A DNA stretch of 37,862 nt from a virus. The notes below the pieces were generated by a model. It ran no database searches and was not told the DNA's origin. It saw only the letters and a list, made by a program, of their open reading frames with translations. Positions 7,086-37,862 of the stretch are shown in pieces (the first letter of the stretch is position 1; every line of letters begins with the position of its first letter). The stretch covers positions 1-37,862 of IMG/VR virus record IMGVR_UViG_3300048835_000110. One strand, 5' to 3'. The position numbers were made by a program, and so were the translations under genes.

Positions 7086-8054
7086 ATGCCCACCTACTCC
7101 GACATCGTGGACCGCGGCGACGCGACTCCCCTCATCCCCGAGGACGCAGCCCGAGAGATCCTCGGCTCGGCCTCCGAGCAGAGCTCGGTCCTCCAGTTGG
7201 CCCGCCGGCTCCCGGACATGGCCCGCAACCAGCGCCGGCTCCCCGTGTGGAGCTCGCTCCCGCACGCCTACTTCGTCGACGGGGATACCGGGCTGAAGCA
7301 GACGACCGACGCCCGGTGGAAGAACGTCTACGTCAACGCCGAGGAGCTCGCGGTGATCGTCGTCATCCCGGACAACGTCCTGGACGACGCCGACTACGAC
7401 CTGTGGGCCGAGATGCGGCCCGGGATCGTCGAGGCGTTCGGCCTCGCCGTCGACCAGGCGATCCTCTACGGGATCAACGCGCCGGCCCTCTGGCCCGAAG
7501 GCGTGGTCGAGGTCGCCGAGCAGGCCGGCCACGTCCTCGAGCTCGGCACGAACGGAGACCTCTACGACGACATCCTCGGCGAGGGAGGGACCCTCTCGTT
7601 CGTCGAGGAGGACGGCTACATGGTCTCCGGCCACATTGCGTCGCTCACGATGCGCGCCAAGATGCGCGGCCTCCGGGACCAGGACGGCCAGCCCGTGTTC
7701 CGCGCCGGCAAGCAGGCGACGGAGGGAGGTCGCTCGACCTACGAGCTCGACGGGGAGCCGGTGCAGTTCCCGAAGAACGGCGCGATCGACCCCGCTCGCT
7801 CGCTCCTGATCTCCGGCGACTGGTCGCAGTTGGTCTACGCGATCCGGAAGGACATCACGTACAGCGTTCACACCGACGGAGTCCTCACCGACTCCGAGGG
7901 GAACGTCCTGCTCAACCTCATGCAGCAGGACGCGACGGCGCTCCGGTGCGTGTTCCGGCTCGGCTGGGCCCTGCCGAACCCCGTCAACCGCGTGAACGAG
8001 GACGAGGACACGCGCTACCCGTTCGCCGTCCTCGAGCCGGCCAACGCGTCCTGA
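7086..8054 (+). CDS. major capsid protein, HK97 fold
   Basis: This 322-residue product has the layout of HK97-fold capsid proteins without a long delta domain. A short N-arm is followed by LARRLPDMARNQRRLPVWSS, an E-loop-like region with KQTTDARWKNVYVNAEELAV, a spine helix (RPGIVEAFGLAVDQAILYG), and an A-domain ending in LRCVFRLGWALPNPVNRV. It forms the icosahedral shell. The start ATG is preceded by GGAGG about 9 bases upstream. It follows the scaffold gene and is followed, after only 3 bases, by the first of five glycosyltransferases, which makes this protein a candidate acceptor for sugar. Confidence 0.92.
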   Translation: MPTYSDIVDRGDATPLIPEDAAREILGSASEQSSVLQLARRLPDMARNQRRLPVWSSLPHAYFVDGDTGLKQTTDARWKNVYVNAEELAVIVVIPDNVLDDADYDLWAEMRPGIVEAFGLAVDQAILYGINAPALWPEGVVEVAEQAGHVLELGTNGDLYDDILGEGGTLSFVEEDGYMVSGHIASLTMRAKMRGLRDQDGQPVFRAGKQATEGGRSTYELDGEPVQFPKNGAIDPARSLLISGDWSQLVYAIRKDITYSVHTDGVLTDSEGNVLLNLMQQDATALRCVFRLGWALPNPVNRVNEDEDTRYPFAVLEPANAS

Positions 8055-8057
8055 GCG

Positions 8058-8735
8058 ATGACGAGCGGGTCGACCGTTCTCCTCGTCCCGGTTCTCCGCC
8101 GGCCGAGGAACGTCGACCCGCTCGTTCGCTCCGTCAGAGAGAACACCCCGGAGCCCCACCGGCTCCTCTTCCTCGTCACCGCCGGCGACTCCGAGGAGAT
8201 CGCCGCGATCGAGGAGGCCGGCGCGGAGTACCTCGAGACCCCGCCGGCCCCTCGAGGTGACTACGCCCGCAAGATCAACGCCGGGTACCGCGCCACCTCG
8301 GAGCCCTTCCTCTTCCTCGGAGCCGACGACCTCCGGTTCCATCCCGGATGGCTCTCCGCCGCCCTCGCCCTCTTCGAGGATCCGGCGATCGGAGTCGTCG
8401 GAACGCAGGACCTCGCGCCGACCGAGCGCGCCCGGACCGGCCAGCACGCGACGCACTCCGTCGTCCGGCGGAGCTACGTCGACGAGCTCGGCACGATCGA
8501 CCGCCGCGGCGAGGTCCTCCACCCCGGCTACTGGCACGAGTACGTCGACGACGAGCTCGTCGCCACGGCCCGAGCTCGTGGAGCGTTCGCGTTCGCGTTC
8601 GACTCCGTCGTCGAGCACCTTCACCCCTCGTGGGGGAAGGCCCCGACCGACGAGCTCTACGCGCAGCAGCGCCGGCGCATGAGTCACGGCCGCGCCCTCT
8701 TCGCTCGCCGGCGGAGGCTATGGACGTCGCGGTGA
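8058..8735 (+). CDS. glycosyltransferase 1 of head cassette, GT-A type
   Basis: The predicted protein has 225 residues with a GT-A/GT2-like core. VLLVPVLRRPRNVDPLVRSV forms the first beta-alpha unit that binds the nucleotide. RGDYARKINAGYRATSEPF is followed by FLGADDLRF with the metal-binding acidic triplet at 89-91. VVRRSYVDELG and a late HPGYWHEYVDDEL complete the acceptor side. It would transfer a sugar from a nucleotide-sugar donor; donor and acceptor cannot be read from sequence. It begins 3 bases after the capsid stop codon, with no obvious ribosome site of its own, and its end overlaps the next gene by 16 bases. Confidence 0.85.
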   Translation: MTSGSTVLLVPVLRRPRNVDPLVRSVRENTPEPHRLLFLVTAGDSEEIAAIEEAGAEYLETPPAPRGDYARKINAGYRATSEPFLFLGADDLRFHPGWLSAALALFEDPAIGVVGTQDLAPTERARTGQHATHSVVRRSYVDELGTIDRRGEVLHPGYWHEYVDDELVATARARGAFAFAFDSVVEHLHPSWGKAPTDELYAQQRRRMSHGRALFARRRRLWTSR

Positions 8736-9328
8736 TCGTCGCGACGTTCGGCGAGCTCCGGTGGGCCGAGCTCGCGCAACGTCGAGCGAAGGTCTCCGCC
8801 GAGCTCGAGGAGCCGGCCGACCTCGTCGTGTTCCACGGAGGGAGCTCGATCGCCGAGGCCCGGAACACCGCAGCCGCGATGACCTCGACGGAGTGGCTCT
8901 GTTTCCTCGACGCCGACGACGAGCTCGAGCCCGGCTACCTCCGAGCGATGGCCGCGCGCCAGCTGGACCGAGGTCTCCTCGCGCCGGCGATCCGGGAGGT
9001 CGTCGAGGGGATCCCGGGCCCGGCCCGCGTCCTCGACGATCGGAACATGGCGACCCTGAACCCGTGTGTCGTCGGGACTCTGATCCGGCGGGAGATCTTC
9101 GACCTCGCCGGCGGATTCTGGACCGAGCGCGCGTGGGAGGACTGGTCCCTCTTCCGGCGAGCCTGGCTCCTCGGCGAGGAGGTCCACCACGTCGCCGACG
9201 CGGTCTACCGTGTTCACGTCAACCCGTCCGGCCGGAACGGGACCGTCCTCCGGCCCCGACAGCTACACCGGGACATCGTCCGGAGTCACGCCCTCTGGAA
9301 GAGAGACCGGCAGAGGAGACCCCGATGA
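8720..9328 (+). CDS. glycosyltransferase 2 of head cassette, GT2-like
   Basis: The 202-residue product starts at ATG 8720 behind GCGGAGG (short spacing) and overlaps gene 1 by 16 bases. MDVAVIVATFGELRW is a nucleotide-binding first strand and AEARNTAAAMTSTEWLCFLD leads into the metal-binding DADDEL (DADD 64-67). FDLAGGFWTERAWEDWSLFR is the typical GT2 region holding the catalytic base, here in the E-D-W-S-L form. Cytoplasmic; no membrane segment. The acceptor is unknown. It ends in a 4-base ATGA overlap with the third transferase. Confidence 0.88.
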   Translation: MDVAVIVATFGELRWAELAQRRAKVSAELEEPADLVVFHGGSSIAEARNTAAAMTSTEWLCFLDADDELEPGYLRAMAARQLDRGLLAPAIREVVEGIPGPARVLDDRNMATLNPCVVGTLIRREIFDLAGGFWTERAWEDWSLFRRAWLLGEEVHHVADAVYRVHVNPSGRNGTVLRPRQLHRDIVRSHALWKRDRQRRPR

Positions 9329-9996
9329 CGATCGCCCTACTCGTGATGACCGACGGCCGGCGGGAATGTATCGAGAGGACCGTCCCCTCGGCCCTCTCCG
9401 AGCTCGTCGGCCCGATCTCGGAGATCTGGATCCACGACGACTCCGGCGACCCCGACTACCGACAGTGGCTCCGCCGGTTCGGAGGGACCGTGATCGGACC
9501 GCCAGCCGGCCGGAGTGGGTTCGGAGGAGCGATCCGGTCCGCGTGGGCCCACCTCCGGGAGCACTCCTCCGCCCGGTTCGTGTTCCACCTCGAGGACGAC
9601 TTCGTGTTCCGCCGTCGCGTCGACCTCGTCGACATGATGGCCGTCCTCCTCGCCCACCCCGAGCTCGTCCAGCTTGCCCTCCGCCGGCAACCGTGGAACG
9701 ACGCCGAGCGCGCCGCCGGCGGGATCGTCGAGCAGCACCCCGACGCCTACGCCGACCGGATCGACGAGCACGGCCGAGCATGGCTCGAGCACCGGCAGTT
9801 CTTCACCACGAACCCGAGCCTCTACCGGATGGCGCTCGTCCTCGATCACGAGTGGCCCGACGGAGCTCAGTCCGAGGGACGGTTCTCCCACGAGCTCCTC
9901 GCCGACGACCGGATCCGGTTCGGGTTCTACGGAGCCCGGGACTCCGGAGAGTGGGTCGAGCACATCGGCCACCAGCGCGCCGGGACCGGCTACTGA
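9325..9996 (+). CDS. glycosyltransferase 3 of head cassette
   Basis: This 223-residue protein starts with MTIALLVMTDGRRECIERTV and has WIHDDSGDPDYRQWL, a small-residue turn (PAGRSGFGGAIRSAW) and the acidic motif LEDDFVF (EDDF, 90-93) in place of DxD. These are features of a small phage GT-A glycosyltransferase type. The late NPSLYRMALVLDHEWPDG and HIGHQRAGTGY are compatible with acceptor and metal-binding elements. ATG start with GAGGAG about 6 bases upstream. A 1-base overlap (TGATG) joins it to the next gene. Confidence 0.82.
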   Translation: MTIALLVMTDGRRECIERTVPSALSELVGPISEIWIHDDSGDPDYRQWLRRFGGTVIGPPAGRSGFGGAIRSAWAHLREHSSARFVFHLEDDFVFRRRVDLVDMMAVLLAHPELVQLALRRQPWNDAERAAGGIVEQHPDAYADRIDEHGRAWLEHRQFFTTNPSLYRMALVLDHEWPDGAQSEGRFSHELLADDRIRFGFYGARDSGEWVEHIGHQRAGTGY

Positions 9997-10826
9997 TGAC
10001 CGTCGTCGCCGTGACGATGGTCCGAGACGAGGAGGACGTGATCGGCTCGACCGTCCGGCACATGCTCGGCGAGGTCGACGCCGTGATCGTCGCCGACAAC
10101 CTCTCGACCGACCGGACCCGCGAGATCCTCGACGACCTCGCCCTCGACGACGACCGGCTCGAGATCGTCGCCGACCTCGACCCCGCGTACGAGCAGTCCC
10201 GGAAGATGACCGCGCTCGCCCACCTCGCCGCCGAGGAGTTCGGCGCGACGTGGATCGTCCCGTTCGACGCCGACGAGTGGTGGTACACCCCGCACGCCGA
10301 CCGGATCGCCGACGTCCTCGCCGCAGTCCCCGCCCGGTGGCACGTCACGCCGGCCGAGCTCTTCGATCACGTCGCGACCGGCCTCGACCCCGACGAGCCG
10401 GATCCCGTCCGGCGGATCGGATGGCGGAGGCGCACGCCGGCCCCGCTCCCGAAGGTCGCCGCCCGCTACCGACCCGACCTCGTGATCGAGCAGGGGAACC
10501 ACGGAGCGCACTACGAGGAGTTCACGCCGGCCCCGTTCGACCCCGTCCTCGTCGTCCGGCACTACCCCTACCGCTCCCTCGAGCAGTTCGTCCGGAAGGT
10601 CCGGAACGGCTCCGCCGCGTACCGCGCCGCCGGCGACCGGCAGGCCCCGGCGCACGGCGCACACTGGCGACAGTGGGGAGAGCTCCTCGACCAGCACGGC
10701 CCCGAGGCCCTCGAGGAGATCTTCCGCCGGTGGTACTGGCGCGCCGACCCTCGCGAGCCCGTGAAGATCGAGGGAGAGCGACAGCCCGCCCTCCTCTTCG
10801 ATCCTCCTCCCGGGGTCCTCGGATGA
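9996..10826 (+). CDS. glycosyltransferase 4 of head cassette, GT2 (Glyco_tranf_2_4-like)
   Basis: The 276-residue product shows a full GT2-type signature. TMVRDEEDVIGSTVRHML is followed by DAVIVADNLSTDRTREIL (the D-N-x-S-x-D-x-T motif) and WIVPFDADEWWYT with DADE at 91-94. The second half (IEQGNHGAHYEEF; VVRHYPYRSLEQFVRKVRNG) is that of the Glyco_tranf_2_4 type. It probably acts in the cytoplasm on a protein or carrier acceptor. ATG overlaps the preceding stop by 1 base and the gene ends in an ATGA overlap. It is the longest transferase core of the cassette and the most confidently assigned. Confidence 0.9.
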   Translation: MTVVAVTMVRDEEDVIGSTVRHMLGEVDAVIVADNLSTDRTREILDDLALDDDRLEIVADLDPAYEQSRKMTALAHLAAEEFGATWIVPFDADEWWYTPHADRIADVLAAVPARWHVTPAELFDHVATGLDPDEPDPVRRIGWRRRTPAPLPKVAARYRPDLVIEQGNHGAHYEEFTPAPFDPVLVVRHYPYRSLEQFVRKVRNGSAAYRAAGDRQAPAHGAHWRQWGELLDQHGPEALEEIFRRWYWRADPREPVKIEGERQPALLFDPPPGVLG

Positions 10827-11719
10827 CGTCGAAAAACCGGAAGCGCGTCCCCTCCGCCGGAGTGGTGATCCCGACGAGAGCCGGCGACGAGTGGCGCGCC
10901 CGGGCCATCGCGTTCGTCCTCGAGTGGTACGCCGACAAGCACCCCGAGCTCCCCGTGGTCCTCGGCGAGCTCGACGAGGCCGAGGAGTGGTCGAAGGGAG
11001 CGGCCGTCGCCGCCGGGATCGAGGAGCTCGGCCCCGTCGACGTCCTGGTGCTCGCCGACGCCGACTCGTTCGTCACCGACCCCCGAGTCCTCGTCGAGGC
11101 CGTCGAGCTCGTGCGCGCCGGCCGGCGCTCGTGGGTCGTCCCCCACCGCACCGTCTACCGGCTCCGAGACCGCGAGACCGAGCGGCTCTACGCCGACCCG
11201 ACCCGCCGGCCCCGGATGAACGTCGTCGCCCGGACCCCGTACATCGGCCCCGCCGGCGGAGGGATCACCGTCGTCTCCCGTGAAGCGTTCGAGCTCGTCG
11301 GAGGGATCGACCGCCGGTTCCTCGGATGGGGAGGCGAGGACGTCGCGTTCGGCTGGGCCCTCGAGACCCTCTCCGGCCCCGCGCACCGTCTCGCCGGCCG
11401 GCTCTGCCACCTCTGGCACCCGCACCCCGCGCCGAACCTCCGCGGGTCCCCGGCCTCCGAGGAGCTCGTCGCCCGCTACCGGGAGGCCCGCGGCTACCCC
11501 CGCCGGATGGCCGCGATCACCGCCGGCGAGGAGTGGGAACCTCTGCCCGAGCTCCCGGAGCCGGTACGGTTCCGGATGACAGCGAACCGACGGACGCTCC
11601 GGCTCTTCGGCTCCGACCTCGTGATCCGGTTCCGAGACGGGATCTACGAGACCTCGGACCCCGACGAGGTCGAGGCGCTCCGACGGCACACGATCGTTCG
11701 AGAGGAGCGCAGACGATGA
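10823..11719 (+). CDS. glycosyltransferase 5 fused to a short head-protein-like tail
   Basis: This protein has 298 residues. Residues 10-205 are a GT-A domain with ADAD at 78-81 and the galactosyltransferase C-terminal signature GIDRRFLGWGGED (161-173), followed by CHLWHPHP with metal-binding-type histidines 196 and 199. Residues 246-298 (RTLRLFGSDLVIRFRDGIY, then ETSDPDEVEALRRH) do not belong to the transferase fold. They resemble the short phage proteins often found just after the capsid gene. The fusion is seen directly; that the tail attaches the enzyme to a virion protein is inference. ATGA overlaps at both ends join it to gene 4 and to the connector gene. Confidence 0.82.
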   Translation: MTSKNRKRVPSAGVVIPTRAGDEWRARAIAFVLEWYADKHPELPVVLGELDEAEEWSKGAAVAAGIEELGPVDVLVLADADSFVTDPRVLVEAVELVRAGRRSWVVPHRTVYRLRDRETERLYADPTRRPRMNVVARTPYIGPAGGGITVVSREAFELVGGIDRRFLGWGGEDVAFGWALETLSGPAHRLAGRLCHLWHPHPAPNLRGSPASEELVARYREARGYPRRMAAITAGEEWEPLPELPEPVRFRMTANRRTLRLFGSDLVIRFRDGIYETSDPDEVEALRRHTIVREERRR

Positions 11720-12351
11720 CCTTCGCGACACCGCAGGACCTCCGGACCTTCCTCACCGGCCAGACCCTCGACGAGGACACCGACGCCGAGTGGATCGCCC
11801 AGGCCGAGCTCCTCCTCGAGCTCGTCTCCGCCGACATTCAGGCCGCGGCCCGGAACCGGATCGTCGCCGGCTCCGAGACCGCGAAGCTCGCCGGCACATG
11901 GTCCCGAGATCTCCTCCTCCCGCGCCGGCCCGTCGTCGCCGTGACCTCCGTCGAGCTCAACGGCTACGCGATCGCCGACGGCCTCTACGAGTGGAACGAG
12001 AGGAGCCTGATCCGCTCCGGCCGGTTCGGAGTGGTGAACGCCGTCGAGCACCTCACGGTCGGGGACGGAGCACATTGGGGAGGCCCGAGCTCGACCGTCA
12101 CCGTCGCCTACAGCTACGGATACTCCGCCGAGACCGTGCCCCTCATCGTGAAGAGCCTCGCCCTCCGGATCGCCGCCCGCACGATCGACAATCCCGGCAG
12201 CGGGATCTCCCAGGAGTCCCTCGGCCCGTACTCCGTCAGCTACCGGAACACCCTCGACGCCGGCGGCTCGCACGTCTCCGAGTCCGAGGCGCGCATGCTC
12301 CGCCGCCGGTTCTCGACGACCGCCGGAACGATCACCGCCGGGAGCCTCTGA
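11716..12351 (+). CDS. head-tail connector (adaptor) protein
   Basis: The 211-residue product has the layout of HK97 gp6/SPP1 gp15-like adaptors. An N-terminal acidic helical part (MTFATPQDLRTFLTG; AEWIAQAELLLELVSADIQ) is followed by a beta region with a proline/aromatic-rich segment (LLLPRRPVVAVTSVELNG), a glycine-rich VAYSYGYS strand, and helices before a flexible C-terminus. It should form the ring under the portal. Its ATG overlaps the stop of glycosyltransferase 5 (ATGA), so the transferase cassette and the connector genes are cotranslated. Confidence 0.82.
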   Translation: MTFATPQDLRTFLTGQTLDEDTDAEWIAQAELLLELVSADIQAAARNRIVAGSETAKLAGTWSRDLLLPRRPVVAVTSVELNGYAIADGLYEWNERSLIRSGRFGVVNAVEHLTVGDGAHWGGPSSTVTVAYSYGYSAETVPLIVKSLALRIAARTIDNPGSGISQESLGPYSVSYRNTLDAGGSHVSESEARMLRRRFSTTAGTITAGSL

Positions 12352-12700: not shown

Positions 12701-13029
12701 GCGCGCCGAGCTCGTTCAAGTTCGAGCCCGATCGGAAGGGGATCGAGAAGGTCCTCGAGGGGCCCGGGGTCGCGAAGGCGCTCACCGACGCCGCCGTCCA
12801 GGTGCGCGAACGGATCCAGCGGTACGCGCCGCGCGGGTTCATGGGGTACTGGCGCTCCGTCCGGTACGTTCCGGCAAAGCCCGGACCCGACGGCCTCGAG
12901 GCCGCGGCCGGAGTCGACTCCCCGGTCTGGCACCTCCCCGAGTACGGAACCGCGAGCTACCCCGCCCGCTCCCCGATCCGCAAGGGAGCCCGCGACGTCC
13001 TCGCCGACTTCAAGGAGGGGAGCTCGTGA
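12697..13029 (+). CDS. neck/head-tail joining protein, HK97 gp10-like
   Basis: The 110-residue protein starts with GTG in a GTGA overlap. It shows a helix (VAKALTDAAVQVRERIQRYAP), a beta-rich middle (YWRSVRYVPAKPG; EAAAGVDSPVWHLPEYGT) and a C-terminal RSPIRKGARDVLADF. The W-H-x-x-E-Y-G-T followed by a basic helix is the pattern of HK97-gp10-like neck proteins. It acts at the head-tail interface during assembly. Overlaps the tail terminator by 4 bases. Confidence 0.78.
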   Translation: MSAPSSFKFEPDRKGIEKVLEGPGVAKALTDAAVQVRERIQRYAPRGFMGYWRSVRYVPAKPGPDGLEAAAGVDSPVWHLPEYGTASYPARSPIRKGARDVLADFKEGSS

Positions 13030-13460
13030 CCGACCCGCTCGTGATCCTGCCGAACATGGAGGCCGTTCTCTCGCAGTTCTACCGCGACCAGCCCGAGATC
13101 CAGGACCTCATCGGCGACCGTGTGTGGACCTCGATCCCGAAGGGAGCCGGCGGAGACCCGATGATCCGCGTAACCCTCCTCGGCGACGAGAAGGTCACGA
13201 GCCGGCCCCTCTGGATCGCCCGGTTCCAGATCCAGACCGACGCGTGGGGAGGATCGAAGGCGCAGGCGCACGAGCTCGCCCGGCTCGCCGAAGGACTCCT
13301 CCACGCCCGGGCCCTCGGCATCCAGGACACGGCCGTGATCGTCGGAGTCGACGGAGGCCCGATGATCGACCTCCCGGACGAGAGCTACGAACCGGCCCGG
13401 CCCCGGTTCCTCTTCACCTCCACCATTACCGCGCACCCGCTCGATACAGTCGCGAGCTAG
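13026..13460 (+). CDS. tail terminator protein
   Basis: This 144-residue product shows the alternating pattern of tail terminator/tail completion proteins. Helix one is MEAVLSQFYRDQPEIQDLIG, followed by RVWTSIPKGAG, a strand RPLWIARFQIQTDAWG, a helix KAQAHELARLAEGLLHAR, and a final strand FLFTSTITAHPL. It caps the tail tube once the tape measure length is reached and joins the neck. The GTG start overlaps the previous stop. A 48-base gap with a hairpin follows before the major tail gene. Confidence 0.78.
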   Translation: MTDPLVILPNMEAVLSQFYRDQPEIQDLIGDRVWTSIPKGAGGDPMIRVTLLGDEKVTSRPLWIARFQIQTDAWGGSKAQAHELARLAEGLLHARALGIQDTAVIVGVDGGPMIDLPDESYEPARPRFLFTSTITAHPLDTVAS

Positions 13461-13508: not shown

Positions 13509-14078
13509 ATGTCCAACACCCCCGCCGAGATCCTGATCGCCGGTACCGGCACGATCTACACCGCGCCCGAGGGGACCGAGCTCCCTCAGTTCCTCTCCGA
13601 GGCGCTCGACCCCGCGTTCGTCCCGACCGGGTACATCACCGAGGACGGCGCGAAGTTCACCGACGCGAAGTCCGTCGACGAGGTCCGAGCCTGGCAGGCG
13701 TTCTACCCCGTCCGGAAGTTCGTCACCGGCCGGACCGGCTCCCTCGAGTTCACCCTCATGCAGTGGAACGAGGAGAACCTGGTCCTCGCCTACGGAGGCG
13801 GAGGGATCATCGAACCGCAGCCCGGCGAGTACCGGTACGAGCCCCCGGAGCCCGACGAGGTGAACGTCCGCGCCGTCGTCCTCGACATGAGCGACGGAGT
13901 CCGGAACTTCCGGTTCTGTGCAGGCCGGACCTACGTCACGAACGACGTCGAGAGCACGTTCGCGAAGAGCGGCCCCGGCCTCCTCCCGATCACGCTCGAG
14001 ATCCTCGACGACGCCGCGAACGTCAAGCCCTGGCGCTACGACAGCGACGACGCCGCGTTCGCCCCGGCCGCGTCGTGA
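13509..14078 (+). CDS. major tail (tube) protein
   Basis: The 189-residue, mainly beta protein begins MSNTPAEILIAGTGTIYTAP and contains PTGYITEDGAKFTDAK, TGRTGSLEFTLMQWNEENLV and a late FRFCAGRTYVTNDVEST, in line with the single-domain tail tube fold. ATG lies about 9 bases after CGGAGG. It is followed immediately by the tail assembly chaperones, as in most siphoviruses. As one of the most abundant virion proteins it is a second possible acceptor for the phage's glycosyltransferases. Confidence 0.87.
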   Translation: MSNTPAEILIAGTGTIYTAPEGTELPQFLSEALDPAFVPTGYITEDGAKFTDAKSVDEVRAWQAFYPVRKFVTGRTGSLEFTLMQWNEENLVLAYGGGGIIEPQPGEYRYEPPEPDEVNVRAVVLDMSDGVRNFRFCAGRTYVTNDVESTFAKSGPGLLPITLEILDDAANVKPWRYDSDDAAFAPAAS

Positions 14079-28585: not shown

Positions 28586-29088
28586 GGATCGCCGGCCTCG
28601 ACCTCTCGACGTCCCGTATCGGCTACGCCGCCCCGGAGGGAGGCCTCCACAGTGTCACCGCACGAGCGAAGGCCGACGACGTCCCTCGCCGGCTCTACGA
28701 GCTCCTGACCGCCCTCGAGCGGCTCCTCCGGCTCTACCCGCCCCTCCCGGACCTCGTGGCGATCGAGGGGTACTCTCTCGCGTCGCCCGGGAGGATCTCC
28801 CTCGTCCGGCTCGGCGAGCTCGGAGGCGCGGTCCGGCTCCGGCTCTTCGAGCTCGACGTCCCCTACGTCGAGATCCCGCCGAGCTCCGTCAAGCGACACG
28901 CGACCGGAGCAGGGAACGCCGACAAGTACCGGATGACGGCCCGAGCGATCGAGCTCGGCGCGCGGGGATCCGTGAACGACGACGAGGCCGACGCGTTCCA
29001 CCTCCGCCGGATGGCGCGGCAGGCGCACGGCCTCGAGACCGCCGAGCTCGACCACGAGCGCGACGCGATCGCGAGCCTCTCGTGGTGA
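28582..29088 (+). CDS. RuvC-like Holliday junction resolvase
   Basis: The 168-residue product has the RNase H-like fold signature of RuvC-type resolvases. D7 lies in MRIAGLDLSTSRIG, E62 in LVAIEGYS, and an acidic pair near D134/D137 in NDDEADAFHL. It should cut four-way junctions in replicating or recombining phage DNA, also helping to clear concatemers before packaging. GTG start in a GTGA overlap. The middle (PPSSVKRHATGAGNADKYRM) fits the basic DNA-binding stretch of phage members of the family. Confidence 0.85.
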   Translation: MRIAGLDLSTSRIGYAAPEGGLHSVTARAKADDVPRRLYELLTALERLLRLYPPLPDLVAIEGYSLASPGRISLVRLGELGGAVRLRLFELDVPYVEIPPSSVKRHATGAGNADKYRMTARAIELGARGSVNDDEADAFHLRRMARQAHGLETAELDHERDAIASLSW

Positions 29089-29801
29089 TCCTCTACCGCT
29101 CCGAGCTCGCCGAGGTCCACCACGGGGACGCCCTCGACGTCCTCCCCGAGCTCCCGACGGAATCCGTCGACCTCGTGATCGCCGACCCGCCCTACGGGGT
29201 CGAGTGGCAGAGCAACCGGCGCGCCGAGACGTTCGACGAGCTCCTCGGCGACGCGCCGACCGACCGGGACGGGATCCGCTCTGTCCTCGTCGAGGCCGTC
29301 CGGCTCGTCGGCCAGCACCGGCACCTCTACGTGTTCGGCCCCGACGACGTCCTCGCCGGCCTCCTCGTGAGCGAACGAGCCGAGCTCGTGTGGGACAAGG
29401 CCCGGCCCGGTATGGGGGACCTCTCCGCCCCGTGGGGACCCCAGCACGAGCGGATCTCGTTCGCGGTCTCGAAGCACCGGCACGCCGGCAAGCGCGACGC
29501 GCCGGCGCTCCCCGTCCGGATGCGGAAGGGATCGGTCCTCCGGTTCGCTCCGCCGACCGGCCGGAACGTCCGGCACCCCTCCGAGAAGCCGACGACCCTC
29601 CTCCGGGAGCTCGTCGAGTCGAGCTCGCGCGCCGGCGATCTCGTCCTCGACCCGTTCGCCGGAGTCGGCTCGACCGGGGTCGCCGCGATCCTCGCCGGCC
29701 GGAGGACGATCCTCGTCGAGCTCGACGACCGCTACGCCCGGATCGCCGCCCAGCGCGTCCAGGACGCCGAGCAGATCTACCGAGCCTCGCTCGACGCATG
29801 A
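29085..29801 (+). CDS. DNA methyltransferase 1 (DPPY type)
   Basis: The 238-residue enzyme carries catalytic motif IV DPPYG at 34-38 and, later, the AdoMet-binding motif DPFAGVGSTG, so it has the beta-class order (IV before I). HPSEKPTTLLRELV is the motif X region. It methylates N6 of adenine or N4 of cytosine; the target sequence is unknown. GTG 29085 is chosen over GTG 29082 because it gives the usual 4-base GTGA overlap with the resolvase stop. No restriction partner is adjacent, so it is probably a protective modification enzyme. Confidence 0.88.
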   Translation: MILYRSELAEVHHGDALDVLPELPTESVDLVIADPPYGVEWQSNRRAETFDELLGDAPTDRDGIRSVLVEAVRLVGQHRHLYVFGPDDVLAGLLVSERAELVWDKARPGMGDLSAPWGPQHERISFAVSKHRHAGKRDAPALPVRMRKGSVLRFAPPTGRNVRHPSEKPTTLLRELVESSSRAGDLVLDPFAGVGSTGVAAILAGRRTILVELDDRYARIAAQRVQDAEQIYRASLDA

Positions 29802-31644: not shown

Positions 31645-32823
31645 ATGCCGATCCACCCCGACAACGTCCACCGGTACCCGCCGGAGTGGCCCGAGATCTC
31701 GAAGCGGATCCGAGCCGAGCGCGCCGGCGACCGGTGCGAGTGTTCCGGCCAGTGTGGACACGACCACCGGCTCGAGCCCGGCTCCGCCGGCGAGCGATGC
31801 GCGGCCCGGAACCGGGAACCTCACCCCGTCACGACCTCGATCGTCGTCCTCACCGTCGCCCACCTCGACCACACCCCGGAGAACGTCGACGACGGGAACC
31901 TCCTCGCCCTCTGCCAGCGATGCCACCTCGCGTACGACCGAGACCACCACGCCGAGAGCCGAGCTCGTCGACGAGCCCGAGAGCTCCCGACCGAGTTCCC
32001 CGCGATCCTCCCCGGCGACTGCCGCGAGATCCTCCCGACGCTCCCGACCGGCTCCGTCGACGCCGTCGTCACCTCGCCGCCCTACCTGAAACAGCGCGCC
32101 TACGGCCAGGACACCGCGCACGAGCTCGGCCTCGAGGAGACCGTCGCCGACTACGTCCGGAACCTCGCCGACGTGTTCGACGAGCTCCGCCGGATCCTCC
32201 GCCCGACCGGGTTCGCGTGGCTCAACATCGGCGACAAGGCCAACAACAGCGGAGGAGCCGGAGGGGACTGGACCTCGACCGCCGCGCTCACCAAGCTCTC
32301 CGGAGGCCCCGGCCGGTTCCGCGACCCCGCCTACCCCGAGGGATCGTTCGTCGACGTCCCCGGCCAGGTGATCGCCGAGCTCCTCCGGCGAGGATGGCGG
32401 CTCCGGCTCCCGATCGTATGGGACAAGGGGAGGGAGAGCCCGGAGAGCCTCCGGCACATCGGCCGGCCGCGATGGTCCCACGAGATGATCTACCTCCTCT
32501 CCCCGATGCCTCGACCCCGCTCGGCCGGCGCGCGCCGCCCCCGGTTCTTCCCCTCGGCCCTCGCCGAGACCGGCTCGGTCTGGCACTTCCCACCGGGAGG
32601 GAACGGAGACGCCCACCTCGCCCCGTTCCCCGACGAGCTCGCCCGCCGGTGCATCCTCCCGACGACCCTCCCCGGAGACGTTGTCCTCGACCCGTTCTCC
32701 GGCTCCGGTACCGTCCCTCGAGTGGCGCACGAGCTCGGCCGTCGAGGAGTCGGAGTCGAGCTCTACGCCGACCGGCCCGAGCTCCTCCACCAGGCCTCGA
32801 CCCGAAAGGACGCCGACTCGTGA
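31645..32823 (+). CDS. HNH nuclease domain fused to DNA methyltransferase
   Basis: The protein has 392 residues. Residues 1-110 are an HNH-type zinc domain: RCECSGQCGHDHRL (30-43), RCAARNREPHP (51-61), LTVAHLDHTPENVDDGNLL (69-87) and LCQRCHLAYDRDHH (89-102). Such domains occur alone in many actinophages. Residues 115-392 are a methyltransferase with TSPPY (143-147) as motif IV and DPFSGSGT (349-356) as motif I, the order of beta-class N4-cytosine/N6-adenine enzymes. GDKANN and GRPRWSHEMIYLL are further conserved parts. The single reading frame joining both is continuous. It could cut and methylate, or use HNH only for DNA recognition. Third position composition is like its neighbours. Confidence 0.85.
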   Translation: MPIHPDNVHRYPPEWPEISKRIRAERAGDRCECSGQCGHDHRLEPGSAGERCAARNREPHPVTTSIVVLTVAHLDHTPENVDDGNLLALCQRCHLAYDRDHHAESRARRRARELPTEFPAILPGDCREILPTLPTGSVDAVVTSPPYLKQRAYGQDTAHELGLEETVADYVRNLADVFDELRRILRPTGFAWLNIGDKANNSGGAGGDWTSTAALTKLSGGPGRFRDPAYPEGSFVDVPGQVIAELLRRGWRLRLPIVWDKGRESPESLRHIGRPRWSHEMIYLLSPMPRPRSAGARRPRFFPSALAETGSVWHFPPGGNGDAHLAPFPDELARRCILPTTLPGDVVLDPFSGSGTVPRVAHELGRRGVGVELYADRPELLHQASTRKDADS

Positions 32824-32966
32824 AGATCTACGGCTGGCCCCTCTTCCTCCTCGCCCTCTCCGCGCTCGTCGCGATGTTCGGCGAGCCGAAGCCCGTCGCC
32901 CTCGTCGTCGCCGGCCTCGGAACCCTCACCGCCGCGTACGACTGGCTGAAAGAGCTCGACCGATGA
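32820..32966 (+). CDS. very small membrane protein
   Basis: A 48-residue product reads from GTG in a GTGA overlap with the fused methyltransferase. WPLFLLALSALVAMFG and PVALVVAGLGTLTAAYDWL are two hydrophobic segments joined by a short polar turn. It is followed by an ATGA overlap to methyltransferase 3. The tight coupling on both sides supports a real gene. Function unknown; a holin-like hairpin is possible but it is far from the lysis genes. Confidence 0.6.
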   Translation: MKIYGWPLFLLALSALVAMFGEPKPVALVVAGLGTLTAAYDWLKELDR

Positions 32967-33892
32967 TCTCCACCGACCCCGCAGACCCGCACCCGCAGTT
33001 CGGCCCGCCCGAGTGGATCGAGCTCCACGACGGAGCCCGGCTCGACCTCGCCGCCCCGTGGAACCTCGCGCTCGGCGACGCCCTCCGCGTCCTGATGGCC
33101 CTCCCGACCGGATGCGCGGACGCGGTGGTCACCGACCCGCCCTACTCCTCCGGCGGATTCACCCGCGGCGACCGGATGGGGTCGACAACGAACAAGTACG
33201 TCCAGACCGCGACGCAGATCGAGCGGCCCGACTTCGCCGGCGACAACCGCGACCAGCGCGGCTACCTCGTGTGGTGCTCCGTGTGGATGGAGGAGGCCCT
33301 CCGCGTCGTGAAGCCCGGCGGCTCGATCCTCACGTTCACCGACTGGCGACAGCTACCCGTCACGACCGACGCCGTCCAGAGCGGCGGCTGGGTCTGGCGC
33401 GGCATCGTCCCGTGGGACAAGGGAGAGGGGACGCGCCCGAGGCGCGGAGGGTTCCGAGCTCAGGCCGAGTACGTCGTGTGGGGAACCGCCGGCCACCTCC
33501 GAGAGGACCACGAGGAGTACCTCCCCGGGTTCCTCCACGTCGCCGACGGCCAGTACGCGACCGGCTCGCTCGTCGTCCCGATCCGGCAGGCCGACAAGCA
33601 CCACATCACCGGCAAGCCGACCGACCTCATGCGGGAGCTCGTGAGGATCGCCCCGCGCGGAGGACTGATCGTCGACCCGTTCGCCGGCTCCGGGACGACC
33701 GGGGTCGCCGCCGTCGAGCAGGGGAGGAGGTTCCTCGGAGTCGAGAAGACCGCCGAGTACGCCGAGATCTCCCGGGCCCGGCTCGCCGAGGCCGAGGCCG
33801 TCCCGACGCTCTTCGAGCTCCCGACGATCACCGAGGCGGCTCGACCGCCGGCGCTCTTCGAGCTCGACGAAGAGGACCCCGTGACGCCGTAG
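32963..33892 (+). CDS. DNA methyltransferase 3 (DPPY type)
   Basis: The 309-residue enzyme has DPPYSSGGF (DPPY at 58-61) as catalytic motif and DPFAGSGTTG near residues 236-247 as the AdoMet loop. KPTDLMRELVRIAPRGG is the motif X-like part. The pattern VVTDPPYSSGG-x-x-R is that of a common phage N6-adenine or N4-cytosine methyltransferase. The target site cannot be read from sequence. C-terminal residues after about 280 are a variable acidic tail. The gene ends just before a strong promoter and is the last of three modification enzymes. Confidence 0.88.
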   Translation: MISTDPADPHPQFGPPEWIELHDGARLDLAAPWNLALGDALRVLMALPTGCADAVVTDPPYSSGGFTRGDRMGSTTNKYVQTATQIERPDFAGDNRDQRGYLVWCSVWMEEALRVVKPGGSILTFTDWRQLPVTTDAVQSGGWVWRGIVPWDKGEGTRPRRGGFRAQAEYVVWGTAGHLREDHEEYLPGFLHVADGQYATGSLVVPIRQADKHHITGKPTDLMRELVRIAPRGGLIVDPFAGSGTTGVAAVEQGRRFLGVEKTAEYAEISRARLAEAEAVPTLFELPTITEAARPPALFELDEEDPVTP

Positions 33893-33929: not shown

Positions 33930-34232
33930 GTGACCACGACACCATCACCCAGCACCCCCGACTACGCCCGGCTGATCGACGAGCTCGCCGCGGCCGGCTA
34001 CAGCCCCACCGACACCTTCGAGGAGCTCTCCTCGACCGTCGACTACTTCGCCCGCCGCGGATGGGACGCCGTCCGGCACAACGGAGACTCCCTCTCGTTC
34101 GCCCGGTTCTCCGACGAGGGAGCTCGTCTGATGACGACGACCCTCTCCGGTTGCATCATCGACGAGGCCTCGTTCTCGACGAGCCGGCACGCCCTCCGCA
34201 TGTTCACGACGGCCGCGGAGCTCCGGCCGTGA
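33930..34232 (+). CDS. small protein from a leaderless transcript, unknown function
   Basis: The 100-residue protein starts with GTG at the predicted transcription start. It contains YARLIDELAAAGYSPTDTFE and a beta-rich RHNGDSLSFARFSDEGARLM, followed by SFSTSRHALRMFTTAAEL. No family recognised. It is the first gene of the downstream accessory operon. Because its promoter is strong it is probably made early. GTGA overlap with the next gene. Confidence 0.72.
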   Translation: MTTTPSPSTPDYARLIDELAAAGYSPTDTFEELSSTVDYFARRGWDAVRHNGDSLSFARFSDEGARLMTTTLSGCIIDEASFSTSRHALRMFTTAAELRP

Positions 34233-34762
34233 CCCCGCACGCCGTCCTCATCGGATGCACCAAGACGAAGCGCGCCGAGCGTTCCGCCGGCCGTGACCTC
34301 TACGACCCGTCCGACCTCTTCCGACGCCGGCGCGCGTACGCCGAGTCGACCGGCCTCCCGTGGGGAATCGTCTCCGCCCTCTACGGCCTCGTCCTCCCCG
34401 ACCAGCAGGTCGACCCCTACGAGATGACGATCGCCCAGCGACGCACCGCCGAGCACGGAGGGACGAAGCATTGGGCCCGCTCCGTGATCCGCGGAGCATT
34501 CCTCTACCTCGCCGACATGCACGCGACGGCCCGGGACGGCCGAGGGTTCGCCTACTTCCCCGAGCACCTCGTCCTCGAGGTCCACGCCGGGATCGACTAC
34601 GTCCGGGCCCTCGAAGAGGTCGCCGGCGACTACCGCTCCGGAGTGACGATCCTCCACCCCGTCGCCGGACTGATGATCGGCCAGCAGAAACAGCACTACG
34701 CCGGCCTCCTCGCCGAGCCGGCCCCCGAGCCCACCTACGGCCAGCTTGCCCTGGCACTCTGA
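34229..34762 (+). CDS. DUF6884-like protein
   Basis: The 177-residue product begins HAVLIGCTKTKRAERSAGRD and then LYDPSDLFRRRRAYAEST, WGIVSALYGLVLPDQQVD and PYEMTIAQRR. The set G-C-T-K-x-K, L-Y-x-x-S-x-L-F and S-A-x-Y-G-L-V-x-P fits the DUF6884 family found in phages and bacteria. The biochemical role is unsettled to my knowledge; a distant likeness to deazaguanine-handling enzymes is only a suggestion, and no queuosine-type genes are present here. GTG start in a GTGA overlap. Confidence 0.72.
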   Translation: MTPHAVLIGCTKTKRAERSAGRDLYDPSDLFRRRRAYAESTGLPWGIVSALYGLVLPDQQVDPYEMTIAQRRTAEHGGTKHWARSVIRGAFLYLADMHATARDGRGFAYFPEHLVLEVHAGIDYVRALEEVAGDYRSGVTILHPVAGLMIGQQKQHYAGLLAEPAPEPTYGQLALAL

Positions 34763-37286: not shown

Positions 37287-37760
37287 ATGCCCACCGTCCC
37301 CCCGTCACCGTGCCCCACCCCGCTATGCCCACACCTCCGACCCTGCCCGCTCCACACCTCGACCCCGTGGTCCGGCGCACGAGACCGACGACGACAGAGG
37401 ACAGGCCTCAGCGGCTCAGCCGAGCAGAAGAGGAACCGGCGCATCATGCGACGACACCGCGGGATCTGCCACGTCTGCCACATGCCAGGAGCCGACGAGA
37501 TCGACCACGTCGTCCCCCTCGCCGAGGGAGGAACCGACGACGACGACAACCTCGCACCGATCCACGCTCGACCATGCCACGAGCGCAAGACAGCAGCCGA
37601 GCGCGCACGAGGCCGCGCACGAGCTCGACGAGGGACCGGACCGGGGGGTGGGGTACCACCGCGGCCGAGGCCGGCCCCGGGGTCAAAGGGGGCAGCGCGC
37701 GCACCCGAGGACCGGTTTCGGACTCGATTCCCCGACCGGGGAGGATCGTTCGGTGGGTAG
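37287..37760 (+). CDS. HNH endonuclease upstream of terminase
   Basis: This 157-residue protein starts with a Cys-rich segment (CPTPLCPHLRPCPLH, C9, C14, C20, H23). It continues RTGLSGSAEQKRNRRIMRRH and the HNH core CHVCHMPGADEIDHVVPLAE (C61, C64, D73-H74), GGTDDDDNLAPIHARPCHER with N88, H93, H98 and KTAAERARGR. HNH enzymes next to terminases assist cos cutting and packaging in related phages. Residues after about 115 are a disordered Arg/Pro/Gly tail. In the left-end copy this tail lacks one codon (GAC, Asp). The 3' end overlaps the zinc-ribbon gene start by 8 bases. Confidence 0.87.
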   Translation: MPTVPPSPCPTPLCPHLRPCPLHTSTPWSGARDRRRQRTGLSGSAEQKRNRRIMRRHRGICHVCHMPGADEIDHVVPLAEGGTDDDDNLAPIHARPCHERKTAAERARGRARARRGTGPGGGVPPRPRPAPGSKGAARAPEDRFRTRFPDRGGSFGG

Positions 37761-37862
37761 GAGGAACCGGCCTCGGCACTCCCGGCCCGGCCGGAACCGG
37801 AGCCGGCGAGCGACGGCCGAGCAGCGCGCCCGGGCCGAGCTCGACCGGGACGATCCGCCGGC
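37692..37862. repeat. right copy of terminal repeat
   Basis: These 171 bases repeat bases 9-176 of the window with three extra bases, GAC at 37734-37736, in the HNH reading frame. The extra bases keep that frame intact. The repeat runs to the last base of the window. Confidence 0.9.
37753..37862 (+). CDS. second, cut-off copy of the zinc-ribbon gene start
   Basis: This is the same GTG start and first 36 codons as the gene at 67-384, interrupted by the end of the window. It shows that the zinc-ribbon gene directly follows HNH and overlaps its stop by 8 bases in the circular map. Confidence 0.8.
   Translation, partial: MGRRNRPRHSRPGRNRSRRATAEQRARAELDRDDPP

Follow-up and report, generated by a model that had tools for sequence, protein, structure and literature searches.

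A mobile block of five glycosyltransferase genes in phage head modules, and the C-terminal serine of capsid and tail proteins as its probable target

Why would a phage carry five different glycosyltransferase (GT) genes between the gene for its major capsid protein (MCP) and that for its head-tail adaptor? The question is raised by an IMG/VR virus record of 37,862 bases (~70% GC), analysed here over its whole length and called the window. Its ends (positions 1-176 and 37690-37862) form an imperfect repeat of ~170 bases with small differences, and because they repeat each other the genome is probably nearly complete, being either almost closed or terminally redundant. By gene content (Pfam and PHROG scans) it is a siphovirus, in which terminase, portal, MuF/protease-like protein, scaffold, MCP, the five GTs, adaptor, stopper and neck are followed by tail terminator, major tail protein and tape measure. 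Further downstream it encodes three N6/N4 DNA methyltransferases (29085-29801, 31645-32823 and 32963-33892), one of them fused to an HNH domain, as well as a DUF6884 protein (34229-34762; PF21818, 5e-25). The answer that we favour, with a probability of about 0.74, is that the five genes are a mobile cassette for virion O-glycosylation, acting on the C-terminal serine of the MCP and the major tail protein, and perhaps of the tail terminator.

Layout of the block and properties of the five enzymes

The original prediction, made from the DNA alone, was that five different GT-A genes fill the space between MCP and adaptor and take up nearly a tenth of the genome, which is borne out by the open reading frames and the Pfam/PHROG matches: GT1-GT5 span 8058-11719 (3662 nt, i.e. 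9.7% of the window). Only 3 nt separate the MCP stop from the start of GT1, the successive GT genes overlap by 16, 4, 1 and 4 nt, and GT5 in turn overlaps the adaptor gene by 4 nt. Since the genes overlap and are co-directional, expression of the cassette in step with capsid production would follow. The relevant features of the window are:

7086-8054, + strand: MCP, HK97-type (PF05065, 92 bits; phrog_10, 2e-41), C-terminus ...LEPANAS-COOH
8049-8051, + strand: predicted acceptor serine codon of the MCP, TCC (C-terminal reading)
8058-8735, + strand: GT1, 225 aa, GT-A, GT2-type (PF00535, 25.0 bits, above cut-off; 14 aligned sequences)
8720-9328, + strand: GT2, 202 aa, GT-A, GT2-type (PF00535, 33 bits; 15 aligned sequences)
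9325-9996, + strand: GT3, 223 aa, GT-A, phrog_3047 type (1.6e-20; AlphaFold model)
9996-10826, + strand: GT4, 276 aa, GT-A (PF13704, 47 bits; PDB profile search; alignment)
10823-11719, + strand: GT5, 298 aa, GT-A, GT7/GT27 type (PF02709, 31 bits; phrog_1721, 1e-16; AF2 model)
11561-11716, + strand: extra C-terminal domain of GT5, ~52 residues (comparison among cassette phages)
11716-12351, + strand: head-tail adaptor, 3' of the cassette (phrog_442, 3e-20)
13026-13460, + strand: tail terminator (phrog_123), C-terminus ...LDTVAS-COOH
13455-13457, + strand: possible third acceptor, serine codon AGC of the tail terminator (C-terminal reading)
13509-14078, + strand: major tail (tube) protein (phrog_117, 3e-31), C-terminus ...FAPAAS-COOH
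14073-14075, + strand: predicted acceptor serine codon of the major tail protein, TCG (C-terminal reading)

Pfam gathering cut-offs are passed by GT1, GT2 and GT4 (PF00535 or PF13704, GT2-type) and by GT5 (PF02709, galactosyltransferase/GT7C); GT3 has no Pfam glycosyltransferase match and is recognised through its PHROG match (phrog_3047, 'galactosyl transferase'). It had further been claimed that each enzyme has its own acidic metal motif. This holds for GT2 (DADD), GT3 (EDD), GT4 (DADE) and GT5 (DAD), where the motifs are invariant across 13-18 relatives, but not for GT1, whose ADD is degenerate: among 14 relatives A89 and D91 alone do not vary, position 90 being D, S, I or C. The other active-site residues, likewise invariant among the 13-18 aligned sequences, are D164/E166 and H187 in GT1, EDW in GT2, H213 in GT3, H189 in GT4, and GWGGED and HLWHP in GT5. 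Pairwise similarity within the set is weak, and the five are therefore not recent duplicates, in line with the earlier reading. With dN/dS values of 0.16-0.34 against the nearest diverged relative (L007), the cassette genes are under purifying selection, and from their sequences GT1-GT5 look like working enzymes. None has a membrane segment (no hydrophobic stretch of 19 residues above a mean of 1.54).

Structure prediction, which had been proposed as a check, gave models of GT3 and GT5 that both match GT-A enzymes in the PDB. The AlphaFold model of GT3 (pLDDT 94) resembles SpsA, TarP and GnT-I (TM ~0.6), and relatives of this protein occur in 205 phage records with nearly exclusively actinobacterial hosts. 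For GT5, the AF2 model (pLDDT 92) was matched by Foldseek to beta-1,4-GalT1 and polypeptide GalNAc-T, the GT7/GT27 type being one that includes polypeptide GalNAc-transferases. The nearest solved relatives of GT4 in a PDB profile search are GmaR (3e-8) and SunS (7e-3), distant matches that modify proteins directly (flagellin and the peptide sublancin, respectively). GT4 or GT5 may be the enzyme that starts the sugar chain. The extra C-terminal domain of GT5 (phrog_34377-like) is restricted to cassette phages with the capsid type of the window (family A) and could, as a guess, tether the enzyme to its capsid substrate. A free small capsid protein corresponding to this domain was also sought in GT-free relatives, and no convincing separate copy was found among the fetched loci and phage records.

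Spread and mobility of the block

Relatives of GT3 were collected from IMG/VR and bacterial genomes, the GC-rich loci L019 and L164 being judged by six-frame profile matches. The carriers of the cassette are soil bacteriophages, with the block lying among head genes. The five-gene order is kept in close phages (L005-L008), in more remote ones that share the capsid type (L012, L013, L015, L017 and L018/L019), as well as in a second group (L009, L010, L014, L016, L020-L022, L024 and L067), to which a locus in Parafrankia soli NRRL B-16219 that resembles a prophage (L067) also belongs. In a few members the block is interrupted by small ORFs or by one additional GT (L014, L016/L067). In this second group the similarity of MCP, TerL and adaptor to those of the window does not rise, or hardly rises, above chance. 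Identity to the window is 22-31% for portal and major tail protein (L010, L016, L021 and L024 compared), 51-65% for GT1, GT3 and GT4, and 38-44% for GT2 and GT5.

The block is found at three gene borders, i.e. directly after the MCP (as in the window), after the adaptor (L024, L070, L175 and L182) or after the stopper (L010, L016 and L021). All three are within the head module, between MCP and neck genes, and the block therefore travels as a unit. An empty site is seen in Eileen and Fontainebleau, which have a related MCP and no GTs and run from MCP through small head genes to the adaptor. In three further loci (L158, L175 and L182) GT1 comes first and GT5 last, with different enzymes in between. 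Judged from these comparisons, the five genes are a mobile cassette that has moved between otherwise unrelated phages. A multi-sugar chain with one enzyme per linkage, as originally proposed, is plausible, because the five enzymes are distinct and conserved and the interior ones are swapped between relatives.

In a collection of 50,697 phage records GT1 has zero matches, GT2 matches only GX15bay (Caudovirales, MK557849), and GT4 matches only GX15bay and two weak records, while GT3 and GT5 have distant relatives among actinophages. GX15bay shares homologues of GT2, GT3 and GT4 (41-45% identity), arranged as in the window and near its terminase, but they belong to a larger array that also contains a methyltransferase and further GTs, there is no match to GT1 or GT5, and no candidate structural protein that was read ends in Ala/Gly-Ser. 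The cassette is a distinct mobile enzyme set of environmental phages and a Frankia-type prophage that is nearly absent from isolated phages.

Terminal serines of capsid and tail proteins

Glycosylated phage particles have been reported only recently, mainly for mycobacteriophages, and the linkage of their virion glycans is reportedly of the O-type. Published studies describe glycosylation of virion proteins in Che8, Corndog and Myrna (PMC12363180, PMC12619734, PMC11600133), a subject also covered in PMC11256854, and locate the glycans on the C-terminal ends of the subunits that form capsid and tail tube (PMC12619734, citing Freeman 2023). Because published glycans sit at these termini, the C-termini were examined here as well. 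In the window the MCP, the major tail protein and the tail terminator all end in serine, encoded by three different serine codons. The same residue ends every MCP read from phages with cassette GTs, in capsid families A and B. Counting distinct MCP C-termini, with the Che8-type family included, a terminal serine is present in 23/23 of the GT-bearing phages versus 6/39 of the GT-free ones, where the GT-bearing class contains two loci that were assigned to it after their C-termini had been seen, though by separate searches (L159, with a Che8 gp110-like GT, and L172, with a Pfam GT2 match). A naive Fisher test that ignores kinship gives 8e-12 (8e-5 for family A alone and 6e-4 for family B alone). 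For the major tail protein the numbers are 13/13 versus 3/10, and the two proteins, MCP and major tail protein, agree with each other in every tabulated phage, three with no recognised GT among them. The tail terminator ends in serine in many cassette phages, not in all.

Complete genomes of the Che8-type family follow the same pattern. Che8 and phiGD23-1, which have GTs, end in ..KTGS and ..RAGS (MCP) and in ..SDGS and ..IAGS (tail protein), whereas AGM4, SASD1 and Jace, in which no GT was found, end in V/V, A/A and G/P, respectively. The GT-bearing Marvin and Idergollasper (a cluster O sister that stood in for Corndog) match it too. When kinship is corrected for with MCP trees, one well-supported pair in family A and four in family B differ in GT content, and within these pairs the serine differences are always in the expected direction and never against it; the independent pairs are too few, so that kin-corrected significance is out of reach. 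The exceptions run both ways. The MCPs of L079, L184 and L185 end in serine and no GT is recognised beside them, where absence on fragments is weak evidence; these may be fragments or carriers of GTs of another kind. Myrna and Nappy carry GTs, yet their MCPs end in alanine, as does that of Syleon, and the tail protein of Eileen ends in serine with no GT found.

It could be argued that the enzymes modify internal sites or minor virion proteins (tail fibres), the terminal serine being incidental to certain capsid lineages. Within each capsid family the serine is indeed inherited by descent, the three Ser-ended phages without a recognised GT fit such a view, and serine also ends roughly a tenth of the remaining proteins encoded at these loci. 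However, MCP and tail protein, which are not related to each other, both show the pattern, and do so in families that are themselves unrelated; it recurs in phages whose C-termini are experimentally glycosylated, and GT-free relatives from the same MCP families usually have no terminal serine. This reading is the strongest of the alternatives and nevertheless unlikely.

Relation to known systems and proposed function

The cassette shares several features with the Che8-type systems, namely a phage-encoded GT set, an MCP and tail protein that end in serine (in Che8, cluster O and Marvin) and a GT5 homologous to Che8 gp109, cluster O gp35 and Marvin gp81 (profile matches Che8_109 1e-22, Ider_35 1e-24 and Marvin_81 4e-22). 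The target in those systems, namely the C-terminal ends of capsid and tail-tube proteins, would also be shared, on the side of the window as a sequence signature. What differs is that the window has five GTs, placed between MCP and adaptor. According to PMC12363180 the gp110 enzyme of Che8 is essential for capsid glycosylation. With a profile built from six gp110 relatives, neither the window nor any full-cassette locus yielded a homologue (one was found in L159), and because this enzyme is absent here, the starter enzyme of the window must differ from that of Che8. Likewise, a profile for the O-methyltransferase of Che8/Corndog-type systems matches no cassette locus. In cluster O, whose GTs reportedly modify capsid and tail tube (PMC11600133), the GT genes of Idergollasper also lie inside the head module, but between portal and protease and as another gene set (with O-methyltransferase and gp110-type GT). 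The window cassette would work like the Che8/Corndog systems without being a member of that exact type. The earlier proposal that virion proteins are the target is now well supported, by indirect evidence: the head-module location in unrelated phages, the empty sites, the kinship of GT5 with gp109 of Che8, and the terminal serine that MCP and major tail protein have in common in cassette phages and in glycosylated mycobacteriophages.

Following this reading, GT1-GT5 would be expressed together with the late head genes and would act in the cytoplasm to assemble a short O-linked glycan, with the C-terminal serine of MCP and major tail protein (perhaps also of the tail terminator) exposed and serving as acceptor. 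One of GT4 and GT5 would start the chain and the other enzymes would extend or cap it, resulting in hundreds of glycan copies on head and tail that may shield or re-tune the particle surface. A broader version, which we hold tentatively and rate slightly below even odds, is that of a portable system for protein O-glycosylation whose acceptor tag is no more than a C-terminal serine preceded by a small residue (in most cases Ala/Gly-Ser-COOH). Where the cassette is present, this tag would be carried by the capsid and tail-tube proteins, and in some cases by the tail terminator, of phages that are not related to each other, and GT1 and GT5 would be kept as bookends around interior enzymes whose exchange alters the outer sugars.

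A target outside the particle is harder to reconcile with these observations. Phage GTs are known from published work on other systems to alter the host serotype, and the fold of GT3 resembles (among many others) the wall teichoic acid enzymes TarP/TarS, so that modification of a host surface polymer, i.e. receptor or serotype conversion that blocks superinfection or aids release, deserves consideration. Against it, the five enzymes are soluble by the criterion given above, the family scans show no GtrA/GtrB-like or flippase partner, the genes are inside the head operon, and the link to the terminal serines of capsid and tail is left unexplained, which makes this reading very improbable. Least probable of all is glycosylation of phage DNA bases: hypermodification of DNA by phage GTs is on record (Pyle 2024, as cited in PMC12619734) and the window encodes three DNA methyltransferases, but these are of the N6/N4 type (PF01555), no TET/JBP, hydroxymethylase or C5-methyltransferase was detected in the scanned proteins (the TET search having no positive control), the cassette sits with head genes and away from DNA genes, and the serine pattern would again go unexplained.

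A terminal serine on shell and tail-tube proteins is a simple sequence sign that might allow glycosylated phages to be recognised from their genomes. Should the C-terminal tail be what accepts the glycan, then appending a short C-terminal tag to other proteins would allow a small set of soluble enzymes to glycosylate them, which would be useful both for probing the natural role of virion sugars and for glycoprotein work.

A number of related loci show other arrangements. In the cluster C phages with an Ala-ended MCP, the protein directly before the MCP (Myrna gp98, L077:5376-5921; Nappy gp101, L197:140-682) ends in ..LAGGS and is a possible glycan acceptor. On the L079 and L185 fragments both MCP and major tail protein end in serine and no glycosyltransferase was found. 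The gp110-like transferase of L159 (13240-13944) lies shortly downstream of a Ser-ended MCP, apparently as a different glycosylation set at the same position. Two loci (L028:7161-9797 and L041:5948-8566) have GT3, a PglD-like protein, GT4 and another GT-like gene in the head module, with probable MCPs that have no terminal serine. On contigs of 163 and 81 kb (L026:4240-10038 and L029:7375-13461) GT2-GT3 stand beside methyltransferase-like or radical-SAM-like genes and GT4. Finally, GT3 homologues are present in candidate-phylum bacteria (Parcubacteria and Zambryskibacteria; L071:5686-12145 and L072:1867-13035), in arrays with further GT- and methyltransferase-like genes and beside very large proteins.
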